Shown here piece by piece: positions 15,558 through 27,650 of a stretch of DNA of 64,000 nucleotides (position 1 is its first letter; each line of letters opens with the position of its first letter). Source of the DNA: a bacterium (GTDB lineage: Bacteria > AUK180); assembly GCA_023144005.1 (NCBI GenBank), contig JAGLGN010000001.1, positions 62,001 to 126,000 on the forward strand. Reading direction: 5' to 3'. The position numbers were made by a program, and so were the translations under genes. Under the pieces are notes generated by a model. That model ran no database searches. It saw nothing but the letters and a program-made list of their open reading frames with translations, and was not told the origin of the DNA.

Positions 15558-16295
15558 ATGAAGAAGTTCACAATAATTTTTGTTGCTATCATTATTCTGC
15601 TGTTCGCGGCGTGCGCCAAGGAAGATACTTCACAGCCGGTAGAGCGCAAGTTCGACTCTACTTCTGTCGATGCGGACGATATGAAAGATGTTGTCTTTGA
15701 TCAATCGCTTGGAGAAGATGAGGATGAGTATCTTCAGGAAAAAGAGCAAGAAGCAAAAAAAGAAGCTGAAGAGGTCAAAAAGGAAGTTGTCAAAGAAGCG
15801 GTAAAGAAAGATTTTACTTCAAAGATAACAGCTTTCGCAAAGACAGACGACGGGAAATACAGTATCACTATCAATGAGAAGATCAAGATATCGGGAATTA
15901 CCATTACAAATGGAAAGGCTATAATGCCTTATAATGAGTGGAATGGGAAGAAATACTACTTCGTATGGGCAAATGACCCTGGCTTCCTGGCAATGGTGGC
16001 CGATGCCATAATCAATAAAAGCATAGCCAGCGCGTCGAAGACCGAGATCACGAAGGCCGATGTGAGGGCCAAAGACAGTGGAACACTGAAAGGCTACGGT
16101 GAAATAGAGATCAATGGTGAATTTCTGATCAAGTCGATTCCCGTTTTTATCGGTGGGAGATACGGTGATGGCATCGGTGACCCCGCTATAAAAGTAGATG
16201 GAGAATGGGCACCGATGGTAAAGTTCCTCGATAAAGGGTTCAAAAATACTGTGAAGGAGATCATATTAAAAAAGTATTACTCCCTCTCCTCATAA
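15558..16295 (+). CDS. Lipoprotein with charged coiled region
   Basis: A 245-residue protein with a lipobox (FAAC, Cys at about 20). Residues about 52-92 are a highly charged Glu/Lys coiled stretch, followed by a compact domain of about 150 residues that ends near the C-terminus. It is separated from pilB by 2 bp. The final codons TTA AAA AAG form a heptamer A AAA AAG (16268-16274) with AAGGAG 8 nt upstream, the same layout as the dnaX -1 frameshift site of E. coli; see the next gene. No family recognised. Confidence 0.6.
   Translation: MKKFTIIFVAIIILLFAACAKEDTSQPVERKFDSTSVDADDMKDVVFDQSLGEDEDEYLQEKEQEAKKEAEEVKKEVVKEAVKKDFTSKITAFAKTDDGKYSITINEKIKISGITITNGKAIMPYNEWNGKKYYFVWANDPGFLAMVADAIINKSIASASKTEITKADVRAKDSGTLKGYGEIEINGEFLIKSIPVFIGGRYGDGIGDPAIKVDGEWAPMVKFLDKGFKNTVKEIILKKYYSLSS
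16254..16274 (+). promoter_or_regulatory. Shine-Dalgarno site plus A-AAA-AAG heptamer deciding the start of the next gene
   Basis: AAGGAG at 16254-16259 is followed 5 nt later by ATT (16265) in the frame of the next gene, and 8 nt later by A AAA AAG, which is in the right phase in the upstream frame for a -1 shift into the next gene. The element can therefore be read as a ribosome binding site for an ATT start or as a stimulator of frameshifting. The sequence alone does not decide. Confidence 0.45.
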
Positions 16296-16717
16296 CGCTA
16301 TTCACTTTTCTTTCCTTTTCTTTTCCCTGCGGAGAAAGTGCTGCGCCCCCATGGGTTAGAGGAGGGCAATCCCTTCTGATGCCGGGCTTGGGACAGGGTT
16401 TTAATGGGAAGATCATTAAGGCGGTTCTATTCTTCTCTTTAGCGGGGGCCGGAACATATTACAGTTTTAACGGATACGAGGGCGTTCAGAGCGCCTATGA
16501 TCAATATCTGACGGCATTTGAAACTGCCCCGGGAGATGTTGAAGCCCTTTATGATAAGTATGAGGAGATGTATTATCTGAATCAATATTTGATAACCGCT
16601 CTCGTAGTATTTTGGGTCTACAATACGCTTGATGCCTTTTTTGACGCGCATTTTCTCAATCTCGACATGGATCTGAAACAGAAACGCTTTGATATTTTTC
16701 TGGAGACAAGGTTCTGA
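16265..16717 (+). CDS. DUF5683-like membrane protein, probable ATT start or frameshift-expressed
   Basis: From 16265 the frame encodes a good signal peptide (IKKVLLPLLITLFTFLSFSFP) and then RGGQSLLMPGLGQGFNGK, a second membrane helix, a loop of about 50 residues and the ending FWVYNTLDAFFDAHF. The PGLGQ motif and the xxNTLDAxFDAHF ending fit DUF5683-type proteins. The first ATG in frame (16379) would cut away the signal peptide, so the start is likely ATT 16265 behind AAGGAG; a -1 frameshift from the lipoprotein frame is the other option. The stop TGA overlaps the next ATG. Role unknown. Confidence 0.6.
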   Translation: MKKVLLPLLITLFTFLSFSFPCGESAAPPWVRGGQSLLMPGLGQGFNGKIIKAVLFFSLAGAGTYYSFNGYEGVQSAYDQYLTAFETAPGDVEALYDKYEEMYYLNQYLITALVVFWVYNTLDAFFDAHFLNLDMDLKQKRFDIFLETRF

Positions 16718-18732
16718 TGAGATTCATTCACTTCAGTGACACCCATCTTGGCGACCACTTTCCTGCCTCAAAAGGACAGGATCCCGAGATATTCAGAGGA
16801 AAGGACTTTTTCAAGAATTATTTTCTGATCACCGATTATATTCTGAAGCACGCCAAAGGCATCGACTTTATCCTGCATACAGGAGACCTTTTCGACAGAG
16901 AACCCTCACATTATATTCAGGAGCTGACAATAAAGCCCCTGCTGGAGATCGACAATTTGGGAATCCCGATATTCCTTATCAAGGGAAATCACGAAAAAAC
17001 CTGCTTTCCCGACTCCTTTACTTCAAGATTTAAGAATCTTCACGTTTTCTGCCAGCCGGGAGCGCGAATACACCGGTTGGGAAAAAAGAAGGTGATGATC
17101 TGCGGCATCCCTTATATGAAAGATGGTAAGACGAGGGTGAATAAATTATTTGCGCAGGCGATGGAGCAGACGAATTGGAGCAAAAAACGGGCTGATTTCA
17201 AGATACTCTTGCTGCATCAATTGCTGCATGGAGCAAAAGTTGGCCCTATCGGCTACAGATTCGGAAGATTCCCTGAAGTGCTTTCAAAGGACATTATCCC
17301 GAAAGAATTCGATTATGTCGGGATCGGCCACATCCACCGCAAACAGATCATTCGTCATCCAAAGACAAAGAAGCAGAATATATTTTTTCCGGGAGCTCAG
17401 GAGAGGATCACCTTTTCAGAGATACATGAAAAAAAAGGATTCTATGATATCACCGTTGATGATAACACAAGTATCGAGTCAACCTTCATTAATTTGAGAT
17501 GCCGGCATATGTTCGAATACAAGCTGAAATTAGACGGGAAGAGCGAGGAAAAAATCAAAGAGGATGCATATAAACTTCTTAAGCGTATTCCCCGAAACGG
17601 CTATGGCAAGATCCGTTTTGAGGGCAAGGTCGAAAGGTCGCTTTTTGATTCACTTCCTTTGCATCAGTTCAGAAGGAAGAGCTTCAAATGTCACTTCAAT
17701 TTTAAGCAATTGCGGATATATAAGGGACATACATCAATGTTTGTTATCAAAGATACTGATATAAATGGAGATATCGGCATTGTCCTTGATACTCAATTAT
17801 CCCTCTCCAAGATCAAATCTCTCCCAAAGGTTCCGGGATTATATATTTTCAGAGATTCAAAAAGAAGGGTGCTCTATGTTGGGAAGGGCATGAGCATACA
17901 ATCCGCAGTAAGGGCACAGATCAAGCGTGTGCCGGAGAATAAGCATCGAAAGGAACTATTGGAAAGTACTAAATATATTGACTGCATAGAAGAAAAGAAT
18001 ATCCTTTCGATGATATTTGAAGAGCGGAAGTTCCTGAGACGATTTAGGCCTCCCTTCAATAGAAAGGTCTCCTCCCCACAAGGCTATTCTTATATCGTGA
18101 CCGACCCGAGCCAAGATATTCTCTTCTTAACTATTTCAGATACACCGCCGGCAAAAGGGGCGTTCTTTCTTGGACCTCTCAAGAAGGAATATAATCTTGA
18201 TAGAGTTCTTCTGACCTTGGAAAATCTGATGGACTTGCCAACCTGTAAAGGGTATTTCTATGAAGCTCCGACATTATGTATCAAATTCCTTACCCGCATG
18301 TGCATCGCACCGTGTAAATCCAAGGACCGTAGGAAAAAGTATATGAAGAAATTGAATGACTTCTTCATTAATCCTTCGAAGGTACTTAAAAAACTAATGA
18401 AAGAGACTCAGAAGAACGAAGGAGACCTCAGGTATAAGTATCTAAATACTTTGGATGCCATGGTGAGAGAACTTGAATATCTCTATAAATTATCAGGTGT
18501 CTTCAAAGCAAAGAATTTCAATGGCCCGGGATATTATGTTCTGACTATCAAGGATGGATTTATTCTCCGTACAGAAAAAGTAGTCTCGGAAGAAGCATTG
18601 TTGAAGCGCATGGATTTTTTCACCGGGCTTCTGGAAAAGGTTTCGAAGAATCGCGCATTAACTCCCGATGAATATTTAAATGGGAAAATGGTGGCGGAAC
18701 TTCTTGAGAAAAAACTGATCGAGAGAGTATAG
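16717..18732 (+). CDS. SbcD/Mre11-type phosphoesterase fused to a UvrC/Cho-type GIY-YIG nuclease
   Basis: A 671-residue fusion. Residues 1-260 are a calcineurin-like phosphoesterase of the SbcD/Mre11 nuclease type, with the metal ligands SDTHLG (Asp8, His10), GDLFD (Asp57), GNHE (Asn91, His92), His167 and GHIH (205, 207). After a linker domain to about 365 comes a GIY-YIG nuclease: PGLYIF (Tyr376), LYVGKG (Tyr387), Arg399, catalytic-type Glu435/436 and PPFN (Asn448). Cys510, 521, 529 and 533 repeat the spacing of the UvrC Fe-S cysteines. The UvrC C-terminal endonuclease domain is absent, as in Cho. It is the last gene of the operon. A DNA repair nuclease is inferred; no sbcC partner is nearby. 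Confidence 0.82.
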   Translation: MRFIHFSDTHLGDHFPASKGQDPEIFRGKDFFKNYFLITDYILKHAKGIDFILHTGDLFDREPSHYIQELTIKPLLEIDNLGIPIFLIKGNHEKTCFPDSFTSRFKNLHVFCQPGARIHRLGKKKVMICGIPYMKDGKTRVNKLFAQAMEQTNWSKKRADFKILLLHQLLHGAKVGPIGYRFGRFPEVLSKDIIPKEFDYVGIGHIHRKQIIRHPKTKKQNIFFPGAQERITFSEIHEKKGFYDITVDDNTSIESTFINLRCRHMFEYKLKLDGKSEEKIKEDAYKLLKRIPRNGYGKIRFEGKVERSLFDSLPLHQFRRKSFKCHFNFKQLRIYKGHTSMFVIKDTDINGDIGIVLDTQLSLSKIKSLPKVPGLYIFRDSKRRVLYVGKGMSIQSAVRAQIKRVPENKHRKELLESTKYIDCIEEKNILSMIFEERKFLRRFRPPFNRKVSSPQGYSYIVTDPSQDILFLTISDTPPAKGAFFLGPLKKEYNLDRVLLTLENLMDLPTCKGYFYEAPTLCIKFLTRMCIAPCKSKDRRKKYMKKLNDFFINPSKVLKKLMKETQKNEGDLRYKYLNTLDAMVRELEYLYKLSGVFKAKNFNGPGYYVLTIKDGFILRTEKVVSEEALLKRMDFFTGLLEKVSKNRALTPDEYLNGKMVAELLEKKLIERV

Positions 18733-23563: not shown

Positions 23564-25126
23564 TTATTTTATCCTCTTTCTTACGGTTTCAATATACAAA
23601 AGCGCATCCTTATTATCGGGGTCAAGGACTAATATACTCTCCCACAATTCAAGAGCTTCGACATATTTTTCGTCGCGATAATGCCTTTCTCCCAACTCAA
23701 GATAATACAATATTATTCGGTTTTTTGCAAGTTCATTCGAAGGATCCAGGGTAACGATTTCCTTAAGAACAGGCAGTGTTTCATCCGAATCTTCCGGCGG
23801 GATGGAATCAATAAGTGCATTTACCTTAACTTCGACTTTTTCAGCAAGCTTTTCAAATGCGGCTTTAAGGGTTTTTTGAACCGCTGGGGAAGGAGAGGAT
23901 GAAGAGGCCTTTTGAAGAAGTACGCGGGCAGCGATAAGGTCGCCTGAGCTCAATAATTTCTGTGCTTCTGCCAAATGCCCGGCGGCGGCGGATTGACTTT
24001 CCTTGCCCGATGGTGATTTGATCACGGGGAACATAGTTTCTATCTTTTTCCACTTAGACTTGTCATTCGGATAGCGCTTTTTCAATTTTCCATACTCCGC
24101 CCTTGCGGTTTTGTATTTTTTACTCTTGATAAGTTTAATTATCTTCAGACTCCACTTATTAATGAGGCCTTCCCGATCCTTCGCCGCACGCTCTTTGGTG
24201 ATTTTAATAAACTGAAGAGCGTCCGGGTTATCTGGTGATATCCCCAATGCCTTGTTGAAATATCCAGAGGCCTTTTCATAATCCCTTCTTCTGTAATGCT
24301 TTATTCCCAATGAAATATATTCATTTATCAGAACGCTTTTAGTATTTCCTGGGATAAGATGCATGCCCCAGGAAAAGGCACTAACCCCATTTGTTCTATT
24401 AAACCCCAGGGCAAATATCATGTCCTTGTAATAATACTCAATCCCGAAAGCGGCGCCATCTAACTTGACTCCACCATTCAGGGTAATCTCCTGATTCAAT
24501 TTCCCTGAGATCCCAAATGAAAAAGCGAGGTCCTGGCCCTTGGGTTGCTTGAGTCCGATGAAGATGGAAAGAACATCCTTTTTATAAAAGAACCCCAGAG
24601 TGCCGCCTATTGTAAAGGGGTAAGCCGGATCTAGGGAGGCGTCTTTCAAAAGGTTTTCCACATAAAGAGCGATAGCCAGATCTGTTAACTGGCCTGAAGT
24701 TCTGAAGTATTTCGTAAAAGGAAAATAAGTGAGGCCGAAGTTCACTTTGTACTTGAAATCCAGCCAGAGGTCATCCTCTTCGTAGATCCCTGAAAAGGAA
24801 ACACCGGTATGCAATGTCTCGAAGGATACTCCCTTTATCAGAAATACCAACTCCCGGAGATCCTGCGAGCGAACACCGCCAAAGGCCAATTGCAGATTAT
24901 CCTTTCTGAAGGAGGCGCCGAAGGCATCCAATTCAAAGAGATCCGTCATGGAGAAATAGTATCTTGGAAGAAGGAGATGAGAGAAAGAAGCCGGATTTGT
25001 GAACATATTAAAAATACCGTCACCCATGACCGTATTTGCTCCATTATTGAGGAAATTATTCAACCCCTGGGAGAATAATGACATCGAAAGGATAAGGCAA
25101 ATAACAATTAAGGCTTTACGCATCAA
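23564..25126 (-). CDS. PorV/UPF0164-like outer-membrane beta-barrel with TPR tail
   Basis: A 520-residue protein with a signal peptide (about 1-20). Residues 25-265 contain NTVMGDGIFNMFTNPASFS and many amphipathic strands, as in PorV/UPF0164 barrels. From about 268, YISLGIKHYRRRDYEKASGYFNKALGISPDNPDAL begins TPR units; a last pair is near 455-510. It probably places a periplasmic TPR platform at the outer membrane. It starts inside the end of recR (11-bp overlap) and abuts the phosphatase gene, an unusual partner for a replication-repair operon. Confidence 0.65.
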   Translation of the reverse strand: MMRKALIVICLILSMSLFSQGLNNFLNNGANTVMGDGIFNMFTNPASFSHLLLPRYYFSMTDLFELDAFGASFRKDNLQLAFGGVRSQDLRELVFLIKGVSFETLHTGVSFSGIYEEDDLWLDFKYKVNFGLTYFPFTKYFRTSGQLTDLAIALYVENLLKDASLDPAYPFTIGGTLGFFYKKDVLSIFIGLKQPKGQDLAFSFGISGKLNQEITLNGGVKLDGAAFGIEYYYKDMIFALGFNRTNGVSAFSWGMHLIPGNTKSVLINEYISLGIKHYRRRDYEKASGYFNKALGISPDNPDALQFIKITKERAAKDREGLINKWSLKIIKLIKSKKYKTARAEYGKLKKRYPNDKSKWKKIETMFPVIKSPSGKESQSAAAGHLAEAQKLLSSGDLIAARVLLQKASSSSPSPAVQKTLKAAFEKLAEKVEVKVNALIDSIPPEDSDETLPVLKEIVTLDPSNELAKNRIILYYLELGERHYRDEKYVEALELWESILVLDPDNKDALLYIETVRKRIK

Positions 25127-25703
25127 TGCGCCCCATCAAAGCGGTCTTCAGTGTAATATCATCCGCGTTCTCCACTACCTGGCCGCTGGGTATGCCAACT
25201 GCCATTCGCGTAATTTTGCAATTTGTTGAGCTCAAATATTTTGTCAGATATTTCGTTGTTATCTCTCCCTCGGGAAGTGGTGACAACCCGATGATCACTT
25301 CGGTGATCCCCTCTTTATCGATGCGGTCTTTGATATTGGAGATATTCAGATCCTCAAAAGTCTGCGCCTTGAAGGGAGAAATAACACCATTCAAAACATG
25401 GTAGCGGCCTTTGAAGAATCCCAGCATCTCAAGTTTATAGAATTCTCTTGAGTTCTCAACGATCAAAAGGGTATTTTCCCGATTATCATTGCCACAAACA
25501 GAGCACGGATCATTCAATCCTTGTACACCGCAATTTGAGCATATACTCTTTTCGGCGGAAAGACGCTCCAAGAGCAAAGAGAGGGACTTGATCTCCTCAT
25601 TCTCCGCTTCTAGAAGAGAGAACACGAATCTCTCCGCGTTCTTCTTTCCAAAAAATCTAAGGTTCTTGACCTTCAAAAAAAGGTCCTTTAATAATTTCTC
25701 CAC
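25116..25703 (-). CDS. recR: Recombination mediator RecR
   Basis: A 195-residue protein of normal length. The N-terminal helix-hairpin-helix (LRFFGKKNAERFVF), the zinc-binding CSNCGVQGLNDPCSVC (about 57-72), and the Toprim strand LLIVENSREFYKLE (about 80-93) with GLSPLPEGEITTKYL are all visible. RecR acts with RecO (and RecF) to load RecA at gaps. It follows ybaB directly in the conserved dnaX-ybaB-recR order. Confidence 0.95.
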   Translation of the reverse strand: MEKLLKDLFLKVKNLRFFGKKNAERFVFSLLEAENEEIKSLSLLLERLSAEKSICSNCGVQGLNDPCSVCGNDNRENTLLIVENSREFYKLEMLGFFKGRYHVLNGVISPFKAQTFEDLNISNIKDRIDKEGITEVIIGLSPLPEGEITTKYLTKYLSSTNCKITRMAVGIPSGQVVENADDITLKTALMGRIDA

Positions 25704-26011
25704 TACATTCCGGGAATATTCATTCCACCTGTAAGCCCGGAGAGTTCATCGTTCATCTTTTCCTGAGCGCTGCTCAAAGCCATGTTCACAGCAGCAGCAA
25801 CCAGATCCGCCAGCATATCCTTGTCATTCTCCTTCCATATCTCATCATCAATATCGATCCGCTTTATTTCCATTGCGCAATTGGCTGTGACCTTGACCAG
25901 GCCGCCGGCGGATTCTCCGGTCACTTCAAGTGTTTTCACCTCGTCCTGCTTTTTCATCAGCTCTTGCTGCAATTGCTGCATCTGTTTTAGCATTTTATTA
26001 AAATTCGCCAT
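25703..26011 (-). CDS. ybaB: YbaB/EbfC family nucleoid-associated protein
   Basis: A 102-residue protein with the typical start NFNKMLKQMQQLQQELMKKQ and the central TGESAGGLVKVTANCAMEIKRIDID strand region. Members form dimers that bind DNA. The gene overlaps dnaX at its start by 14 bp and recR at its end by 1 bp. Confidence 0.95.
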   Translation of the reverse strand: MANFNKMLKQMQQLQQELMKKQDEVKTLEVTGESAGGLVKVTANCAMEIKRIDIDDEIWKENDKDMLADLVAAAVNMALSSAQEKMNDELSGLTGGMNIPGM

Positions 26012-27650
26012 TTTGATTCTCCTTCTTCTCCGGCTTCACATGAATATTTCCACCGAAGGCATCGACCAGGGTCTTGATCTCCGGAATGGCATTTTTCACC
26101 TCATCCTTCAAGCCGGATTTAATGAGCTTGCCGTCCTTGAAGCTGGAATCGGCCCAATTCACCTCAAGATCGAGCTGCTCAGAATGAAAGAAATTTCGCA
26201 TCAGGCGGACAACCGGAGTCCAATCAGCGCCTTGTCTTTCTTTGAAAAATAATTTGGAGATATCTTTCATTGTAATATGGGCCGCATCCTTACCGAATGA
26301 ATGAAATATCGTATTCTTCAAAAAACTGTCGTAGAGCTTGGAATCAGTTGACTCGACCCATTTACAAAAAGCATCGTAATCCTTTGCATTTACGATCACT
26401 TTCGATGGAGACGGCGCGGCTTCCTGCTCATCCGCTGGAATCTTCTCATTCCCTTGAGGGCTTTCCTGGTTTTGTCCATGCACCTGGTCTTTTATCCTTG
26501 CGGCGCGGGCATATGAGATCAATTCATCTATATCATAGAGCTCGTAAAGATGAAGAAGTTCCGCGATCATGACCTCGACCTCCAAGTTGCCGCTTTCTGA
26601 ATATTTTATATTGGTATATGTCTTCTCAACAATACGCATGAAACTGATCAGAATATCCTGAGATTTGATCTTGGAGATCAGTTCTGTCCATTTTGTATAA
26701 TTTTCTTCCGGAAAATAAAGGATCGAACGGTTCTTTTTATCCCCGGCAGAGATCAGAATAAGATCCCTTAACACTTTTAAAAATGAGTGAAGAAAGTCAT
26801 TCAAATTCAATCCCCGGGAGTAAAGGTCCGATACTACTTCAATACCGCCGGACGCTGAACTTGAAACGATATGCTGCAGCACCTTCATTACCCAGTCAAT
26901 GGGAACTATTCCCAGAAAATCCTGTACCATCTCAACGGTGATGAGCCCTTCCGAGAATGAAGATAGCTGGTCTAACATGACCTCGGCATCCCTGAGTGAC
27001 CCCTCGGATTGAAGTCCGATATATCCATAGACCTCATCGTCCACATCTATATTTTCTTTCTTGCCGATATCCCGCAATTTATTATTGATATCCTGAAGAG
27101 ATATCCTTCTGAAATCAAAACGCTGACAACGGGAAAGTATAGTGGGCGGGACCTTGAACGGTTCTGTAGTGGCAAAGATAAAGATCACATGCGGAGGCGG
27201 CTCTTCCAAAGATTTCAAAAGAGCGTTGAAGGCCTCATTCGTAAGCATATGGACTTCATCGATAATATATATTTTTTTCTTATCAGCACCGGATACCGGA
27301 GGATATTTTAATTGCTCTATCAGATGGCGTATATCGTCAATGCGGCGATTGGAAGCGCCATCGATCTCGATCACATCAAGAGCGTTTCCCCTCGAAATAG
27401 TGAGGCATGAGTCACACACATTACAGGGGAGATCGGTAGGGCCTTCTTTGCAATTCAAGCTCTTGGCAAGTATTCTCGCCATCGAGGTTTTACCCACACC
27501 ACGCGGTCCGGCGAAGAGATAAGCATGGCCGATATTGCCGCTTAGAACGGCGTTCTTCAAGGTTTGGACAACATGCTTCTGGCCCACAAGTTCCACGAAA
27601 CTCTGGGCCCTGTACTTTCTTGCGAAAACTGTGTATTTTTCCTTATTCAT
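25998..27650 (-). CDS. dnaX: DNA polymerase III subunit gamma/tau
   Basis: A 550-residue clamp-loader ATPase. Walker A is GPRGVGKTS (about 48-56), the zinc module has four Cys (CKEGPTDLPCNVCDSC, about 67-82), Walker B is IIDEVHML and the SRC motif is LSRCQRFDFR. Domain III runs to about 370, then a linker of about 40 residues rich in Gln/Pro/Glu and a tau-like C-terminal domain. I saw no A-AAA-AAG heptamer in it, so a gamma-type frameshift is not evident. The ATG is 11 bp after the SRP RNA 3' end with GAAAGG as a weak ribosome site. Confidence 0.95.
   Translation of the reverse strand: MNKEKYTVFARKYRAQSFVELVGQKHVVQTLKNAVLSGNIGHAYLFAGPRGVGKTSMARILAKSLNCKEGPTDLPCNVCDSCLTISRGNALDVIEIDGASNRRIDDIRHLIEQLKYPPVSGADKKKIYIIDEVHMLTNEAFNALLKSLEEPPPHVIFIFATTEPFKVPPTILSRCQRFDFRRISLQDINNKLRDIGKKENIDVDDEVYGYIGLQSEGSLRDAEVMLDQLSSFSEGLITVEMVQDFLGIVPIDWVMKVLQHIVSSSASGGIEVVSDLYSRGLNLNDFLHSFLKVLRDLILISAGDKKNRSILYFPEENYTKWTELISKIKSQDILISFMRIVEKTYTNIKYSESGNLEVEVMIAELLHLYELYDIDELISYARAARIKDQVHGQNQESPQGNEKIPADEQEAAPSPSKVIVNAKDYDAFCKWVESTDSKLYDSFLKNTIFHSFGKDAAHITMKDISKLFFKERQGADWTPVVRLMRNFFHSEQLDLEVNWADSSFKDGKLIKSGLKDEVKNAIPEIKTLVDAFGGNIHVKPEKKENQNGEF

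Follow-up and report, generated by a model that had tools for sequence, protein, structure and literature searches.

Mre11-type nucleases are understood as being driven by Rad50, while UvrC and Cho are understood as being guided by UvrAB. Among published systems the nearest parallel to the protein described here is found in actinobacteria and others, where a DnaQ-type exonuclease is fused to a Cho-like half-UvrC; these fusions have been proposed to nick the damaged strand and then remove it by exonuclease action (PMC1564403). In such DEDD-exonuclease fusions (PRK07883; 'Cho-like+Exo', Dunin-Horkawicz et al. 2006, PMC1564403) the exonuclease lies N-terminal to a GIY-YIG domain and a four-cysteine segment, and the RNase H/HhH half of UvrC is missing. 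The window analysed here, a stretch of 64,000 nucleotides of bacterial DNA, contains a gene with this architecture in its general form (N-terminal exonuclease, GIY-YIG and C4, without the EndoV half), in which the exonuclease is a metallophosphoesterase, of a fold unrelated to DEDD. The features of the locus are as follows:

16717–18732 (+): fusion gene, Mre11-like nuclease joined to the N-terminal half of UvrC; 671 aa, orthologues in 5/5 family genomes
16717–17466 (+): Mre11/SbcD-type phosphoesterase domain, residues 1–250; PF00149, Mre11 fold match
17494–17751 (+): Mre11-type capping domain, approximately residues 260–345; predicted strand-helix-strand at 253–336, alignment to Mre11 cores of 313–333 aa
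17806–18081 (+): UvrC-type GIY-YIG domain, residues 364–455, with Y376, Y387, E436 and N448 present
17905–17919 (+): two catalytic GIY-YIG positions lost (Ala397, Gln401), from alignments to UvrC
18244–18315 (+): four-cysteine segment (C510, C521, C529, C533), invariant in all fusions
18352–18729 (+): C-terminal 126 residues, helical, without recognisable UVR, RNase H or HhH
16379–16717 (+): gene for a DUF5683 membrane protein upstream of the fusion; its stop overlaps the fusion start (TGATG, 16715–16719)

The 671 codons form a single open frame without interruption, in which residues 1–345 make up the Mre11-type core and cap, and residues 364–545 the UvrC/Cho-type GIY-YIG domain and four-cysteine segment. 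A first-pass annotation, made from the sequence alone, had proposed a fusion of an SbcD/Mre11-type with a UvrC/Cho-type protein, and domain matches, structure models and five assemblies show this fusion to be real. The full fusion is present in all five genomes of the window's family (four genera, 33–98% identity) and has kept its full length in each genus, whereas the two genomes of a second family contain UvrC only, these seven being the genomes examined of what is a small phylum. The order of the neighbouring genes (SpoVG-like lipoprotein, DUF5683, fusion) is identical in each genus, the DUF5683 gene preceding the fusion also in G001, G002 and G004. Every family genome is a draft assembly, which leaves some room for an artefact; however, since five assemblies from four genera show the fusion without interruption and a further one exists in another phylum, the chance that a frameshift or an assembly join created it, as the annotation had considered, is negligible.

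With regard to the N-terminal half, residues 1–208 match Metallophos (PF00149) over the Pfam cut-off (E 9.8e-15), and the complete set of phosphoesterase ligands that the annotation had listed (D8, H10, D57, N91, H92, H167, H205 and H207; 8/8) is not only present but also invariant in 17 of 17 intact subfamily members. The whole-chain structure model, usable for the nuclease half and of low confidence for the UvrC half (9 sequences), matches the Mre11 core including the cap, with a best TMt of 0.74 (3thn). The protein thus resembles SbcCD and Mre11-Rad50 in its nuclease core, its eight metal ligands and its capping domain. In contrast to these systems, it scores 53.2 bits against the SbcD model TIGR00619 (cut-off 77.65), indicating that it is related to, but outside, the SbcD family as curated, and the nuclease domains of the subfamily are set apart as one clade from SbcD, from viral homologues and from the other metallophosphoesterase of the genome (support 95/95). 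The helices that follow the cap in Mre11/SbcD and bind Rad50 appear, judging from the lengths, to be absent from the fusion, which carries the UvrC-like half instead, and neither the window nor the loci of the relatives contain an adjacent gene for SbcC/Rad50.

The annotation had also stated that there is no SbcC, and no protein in the genome exceeds the SbcC cut-off, although this cut-off is strict: of 14 control genomes, only one passed it. What the genome does have is a separate metallophosphoesterase gene, which overlaps with the gene of an AAA/SMC-type ATPase downstream of it (L042, in G000 C37; L044 is its counterpart in G001), a pair that would be YhaO/YhaN- or SbcCD-like as named from its domains. 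This pair was considered as the SbcCD partner of the fusion gene and rejected, the L042 nuclease lying outside the subfamily clade. Of the separate repair genes whose presence the annotation had left to be checked, uvrC is found: the genome encodes a complete UvrC (L005, 589 aa, RNase H and GIY-YIG both over cut-off, active site intact). It encodes UvrB as well, so the fusion does not replace either of them.

The C-terminal half is recognised by two NCBIfam models, TIGR00194 (uvrC; residues 364–573, E 5.7e-22) and PRK07883 (DEDD-exonuclease/UvrC-like; residues 366–587, E 2.1e-20), the latter match bearing out the likeness to actinobacterial DnaQ-type fusions (PMC1564403) that the annotation had pointed to. 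Both scores fall below the whole-protein cut-offs (78.1 against 285 for TIGR00194) because the fusion contains only half of UvrC. The Pfam GIY-YIG model is silent on the window protein itself but matches the orthologues of G004 (8.9e-4, under cut-off) and G001 (1.2e-7, over cut-off); the GIY-YIG domain that was predicted after residue 365 is detected through the two NCBIfam models. When the UvrC half was modelled separately, its GIY-YIG core came out well and its four-cysteine region remained unreliable, and residues 355–588 of this model match crystal structures of the UvrC GIY-YIG domain with a TMt of 0.83 and an rmsd of 1.5–2 A. UVR (UvrB-binding), UvrC_RNaseH and HhH gave no Pfam match in the window fusion protein, in agreement with the annotation's view that the second nuclease half of UvrC is absent.

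Compared with UvrC and Cho, which make the 3' incision in nucleotide excision repair, the window protein thus shares the GIY-YIG fold and a cysteine-rich segment of near-identical spacing, the intervals being 11/8/4 as the annotation had counted them, against 12/8/4 in E. coli UvrC. No member of the window family departs from the four cysteines or from E436; the UvrC-like spacing of the cysteines is of the [4Fe-4S] type, and they may hold a cluster of this kind. Unlike UvrC and Cho, the window protein lacks not only the RNase H/HhH half but also the catalytic arginine and the Tyr/His of the GIY-YIG site. In a gap-free alignment to Bacillus caldotenax UvrC (1yd6), the position of UvrC Arg39 (Tyr29+10) is occupied by Ala397, and that of UvrC Tyr43 (His43 in SLX1) by Gln401. 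Among the residues assigned to the active site by the annotation, Tyr376, Tyr387, Asn448 and the glutamate, which is E436, hold good; Arg399, however, is not the catalytic arginine, as it lies two residues beyond that position, between Ala397 and Gln401 on the same predicted helix.

To place these replacements, the site was compared with 25 outside sequences, consisting of 16 UvrC/Cho references and nine partners from outside the family (see below), and all 25 carry Arg and Tyr/His at the two positions. The four genera of the window family carry A/Q, T/N, M/M and R/M instead, meaning that Tyr/His is found in none of them and that the arginine is lost in three, the G001 orthologue having retained it. 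The active site is intact in nine of nine outside partners and broken in four of four genera of the window family. For SLX1 it has been reported that substituting any of the five equivalent active-site residues strongly lowers cleavage (PMC8287910), and the UvrC variants listed in the PDB include Y19F, Y29F, Y43F and N88A. Since two of the five catalytic residues are replaced, the GIY-YIG half of the window protein is probably not an active nuclease, as judged from sequence, and the annotation's view of it as an incision nuclease is not upheld. It is unlikely that this half nevertheless cuts DNA, with Arg399 standing in for the usual arginine: the retention of Y376, Y387, E436 and N448, the closeness of Arg399 to the catalytic position, the arginine of the G001 orthologue and the purifying selection on the GIY-YIG domain (see below) all speak for such a dual nuclease, whereas the unanimity of the outside sequences and the SLX1 mutants speak against it. 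Moreover, position 399 is Gln in G004 and Leu in G002, and of six tabulated GIY-YIG positions G002 retains the Glu only.

Loss of catalytic residues would also be expected if the UvrC-like half were a decaying relic and the Mre11-like part alone mattered, and across genera the UvrC-like half has indeed diverged faster, with 21–29% identity against 39–50% for the nuclease half. Between two species of the window's genus, however, dN/dS is 0.06 overall and 0.08 for residues 356–671, and none of the seven changes within residues 356–460 is non-synonymous. The fusion is under purifying selection, and these ratios, taken together with the invariant cysteines and E436 and with the absence of any shortening in the four genera, speak against a relic, which is very unlikely. 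Because the nicking site is gone while the fold and the cysteines are kept, targeting or holding DNA is the likelier task of the UvrC-like half, which may have been kept for binding DNA or lesions.

When 386 genomes were searched with the fusion profile, members of this nuclease subfamily came to light in other lineages. The annotation had suggested looking for the same architecture in other genomes, and it does recur, both as a second single-chain fusion in another phylum (G261, 649 aa, Metallophos and GIY-YIG both over the Pfam cut-off) and in a two-gene form. In G064, G213 and G216 the Mre11-like gene is followed directly downstream, on the same strand, by a gene for a half-UvrC (Cho-like) protein. 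Searching the phyla to which these genomes belong with a nuclease-only profile yielded five more, G417, G426, G428, G429 and G442, each with a Cho-like gene immediately downstream although the Cho-like half was absent from the query, which brings the two-gene form to eight genomes. The junctions of the split pairs are mostly ATGA-type or 8-base overlaps, with a near-overlap in G213, and no third gene was seen to recur consistently in the flanks. In three genomes (G083, G089 and G199) no partner gene lies next to that of the nuclease. The pairing of an Mre11-like with a Cho-like protein is consequently found in at least five phyla, namely that of the window and those of G064, G213, G216 and G261/G417. 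A full-text search of the open-licence literature returned no description of the fusion or of the operon.

Almost all of the G064 split partner (9–329, E 9.5e-51) can be aligned to PRK07883, and the UVR motif of this partner, just under the cut-off, hints at contact with UvrB. In phylogenetic terms, the Cho-like partners from outside the family fall into a single clade with the G261 half among them (100/99; 93/93 when E. coli UvrC and Cho are added), and the UvrC-like halves of the window family form a separate one (100/99). A sister relation between the two gave an AU p of 0.46, the branches being long. One ancient fusion with later fission and two fusions both fit these data, and the pairing could have arisen twice.

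As a side observation, the Mre11-like subfamily gene of G296 (L058, L106) consists of two halves, both well conserved, that are separated by an in-frame TGA, a sign of a pseudogene, a sequencing error or recoding. It was also noted that the split Cho-like partners of G064 and G213 (L094, L095) have three of the four UvrC-type cysteines, the second being Ser, and an intact GIY-YIG site, which is the reverse of the situation in the window family.

Outside the window family the subfamily is sporadic (2/40 and 5/20 genomes of two phyla), and this distribution, together with two nucleases in a compact operon, would suit a pair of nucleases that acts against phages or plasmids and not in repair. Such a function is nonetheless quite unlikely, given that the gene is universal in the window family, with constant order and among housekeeping genes, that PADLOC gave no meaningful match, and that none was found on plasmids or phages or next to visible mobile elements. 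Origins in mobile or viral DNA were rejected separately: the tblastn matches in plasmids and phages were to SbcD-like or to UvrC-like sequences singly, all with coverage below 80%, and viral contigs likewise yielded separate homologues only.

We consider, with a probability of roughly one half, that the window protein belongs to a conserved two-nuclease module made up of an Mre11-like exonuclease without adjacent SbcC/Rad50 and a Cho-like half-UvrC, and that in the window's family, with its decayed GIY-YIG site, the UvrC-like half serves as a DNA/lesion platform for the Mre11 nuclease. Against this reading count the three genomes with a solo nuclease, the interrupted copy of G296, the scarcity of repair genes nearby and the chance that the pairing arose more than once. 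For this module we infer a role in DNA repair, with biochemistry and an order of steps that may be as follows. In general, the GIY-YIG, putative Fe-S and UVR parts of the Cho-like partner would guide it to nick DNA beside a lesion or a distortion, and the Mre11-like nuclease would then resect the nicked strand through the lesion; this nick-then-resect order is proposed by analogy with the DnaQ–Cho-like fusions. In the window family, where both parts are in one chain and the GIY-YIG catalytic site has decayed, the UvrC-like half would, as a DNA- or lesion-binding platform, deliver the Mre11 nuclease in Rad50's place. The wider proposition is put forward a little more tentatively still: that these genes constitute a DNA excision system which spans several phyla and has so far gone undescribed, and that in it a Cho-like half-UvrC loads an Mre11-type nuclease acting without Rad50, the partner being in one lineage a non-cutting, possibly Fe-S, DNA-binding platform. 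What is new relative to the known exonuclease and Cho-like half-UvrC proteins is the different exonuclease fold, the two-gene form, often with overlapping genes, and a lineage with a degenerate GIY-YIG active site and no recognisable UVR motif. The recurrent pairing suggests that nick-then-resect enzymes have evolved in bacteria at least twice, from unrelated exonuclease folds (DnaQ-type and Mre11-type) and the same kind of Cho-like half. Moreover, the intact GIY-YIG site outside and its loss in the window family offer a natural comparison between cutting and targeting in UvrC-type proteins.

Repair context among the window's neighbours is confined to recR and dnaX, which lie with ebfC/ybaB in their usual cluster at 25116–27650 (-), approximately 6.5 kb from the fusion and on the opposite strand. 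Closer by, the gene at 15558–16295 (+) encodes a predicted lipoprotein with a signal peptide ending in LLFAACAKE and a C-terminal SpoVG-like domain (PF04026, 1.8e-5, under cut-off; over cut-off in three relatives, 2.5e-9 to 9.1e-9). Export of such a domain is out of the ordinary, SpoVG itself being known as a regulator that binds nucleic acids in the cytoplasm.
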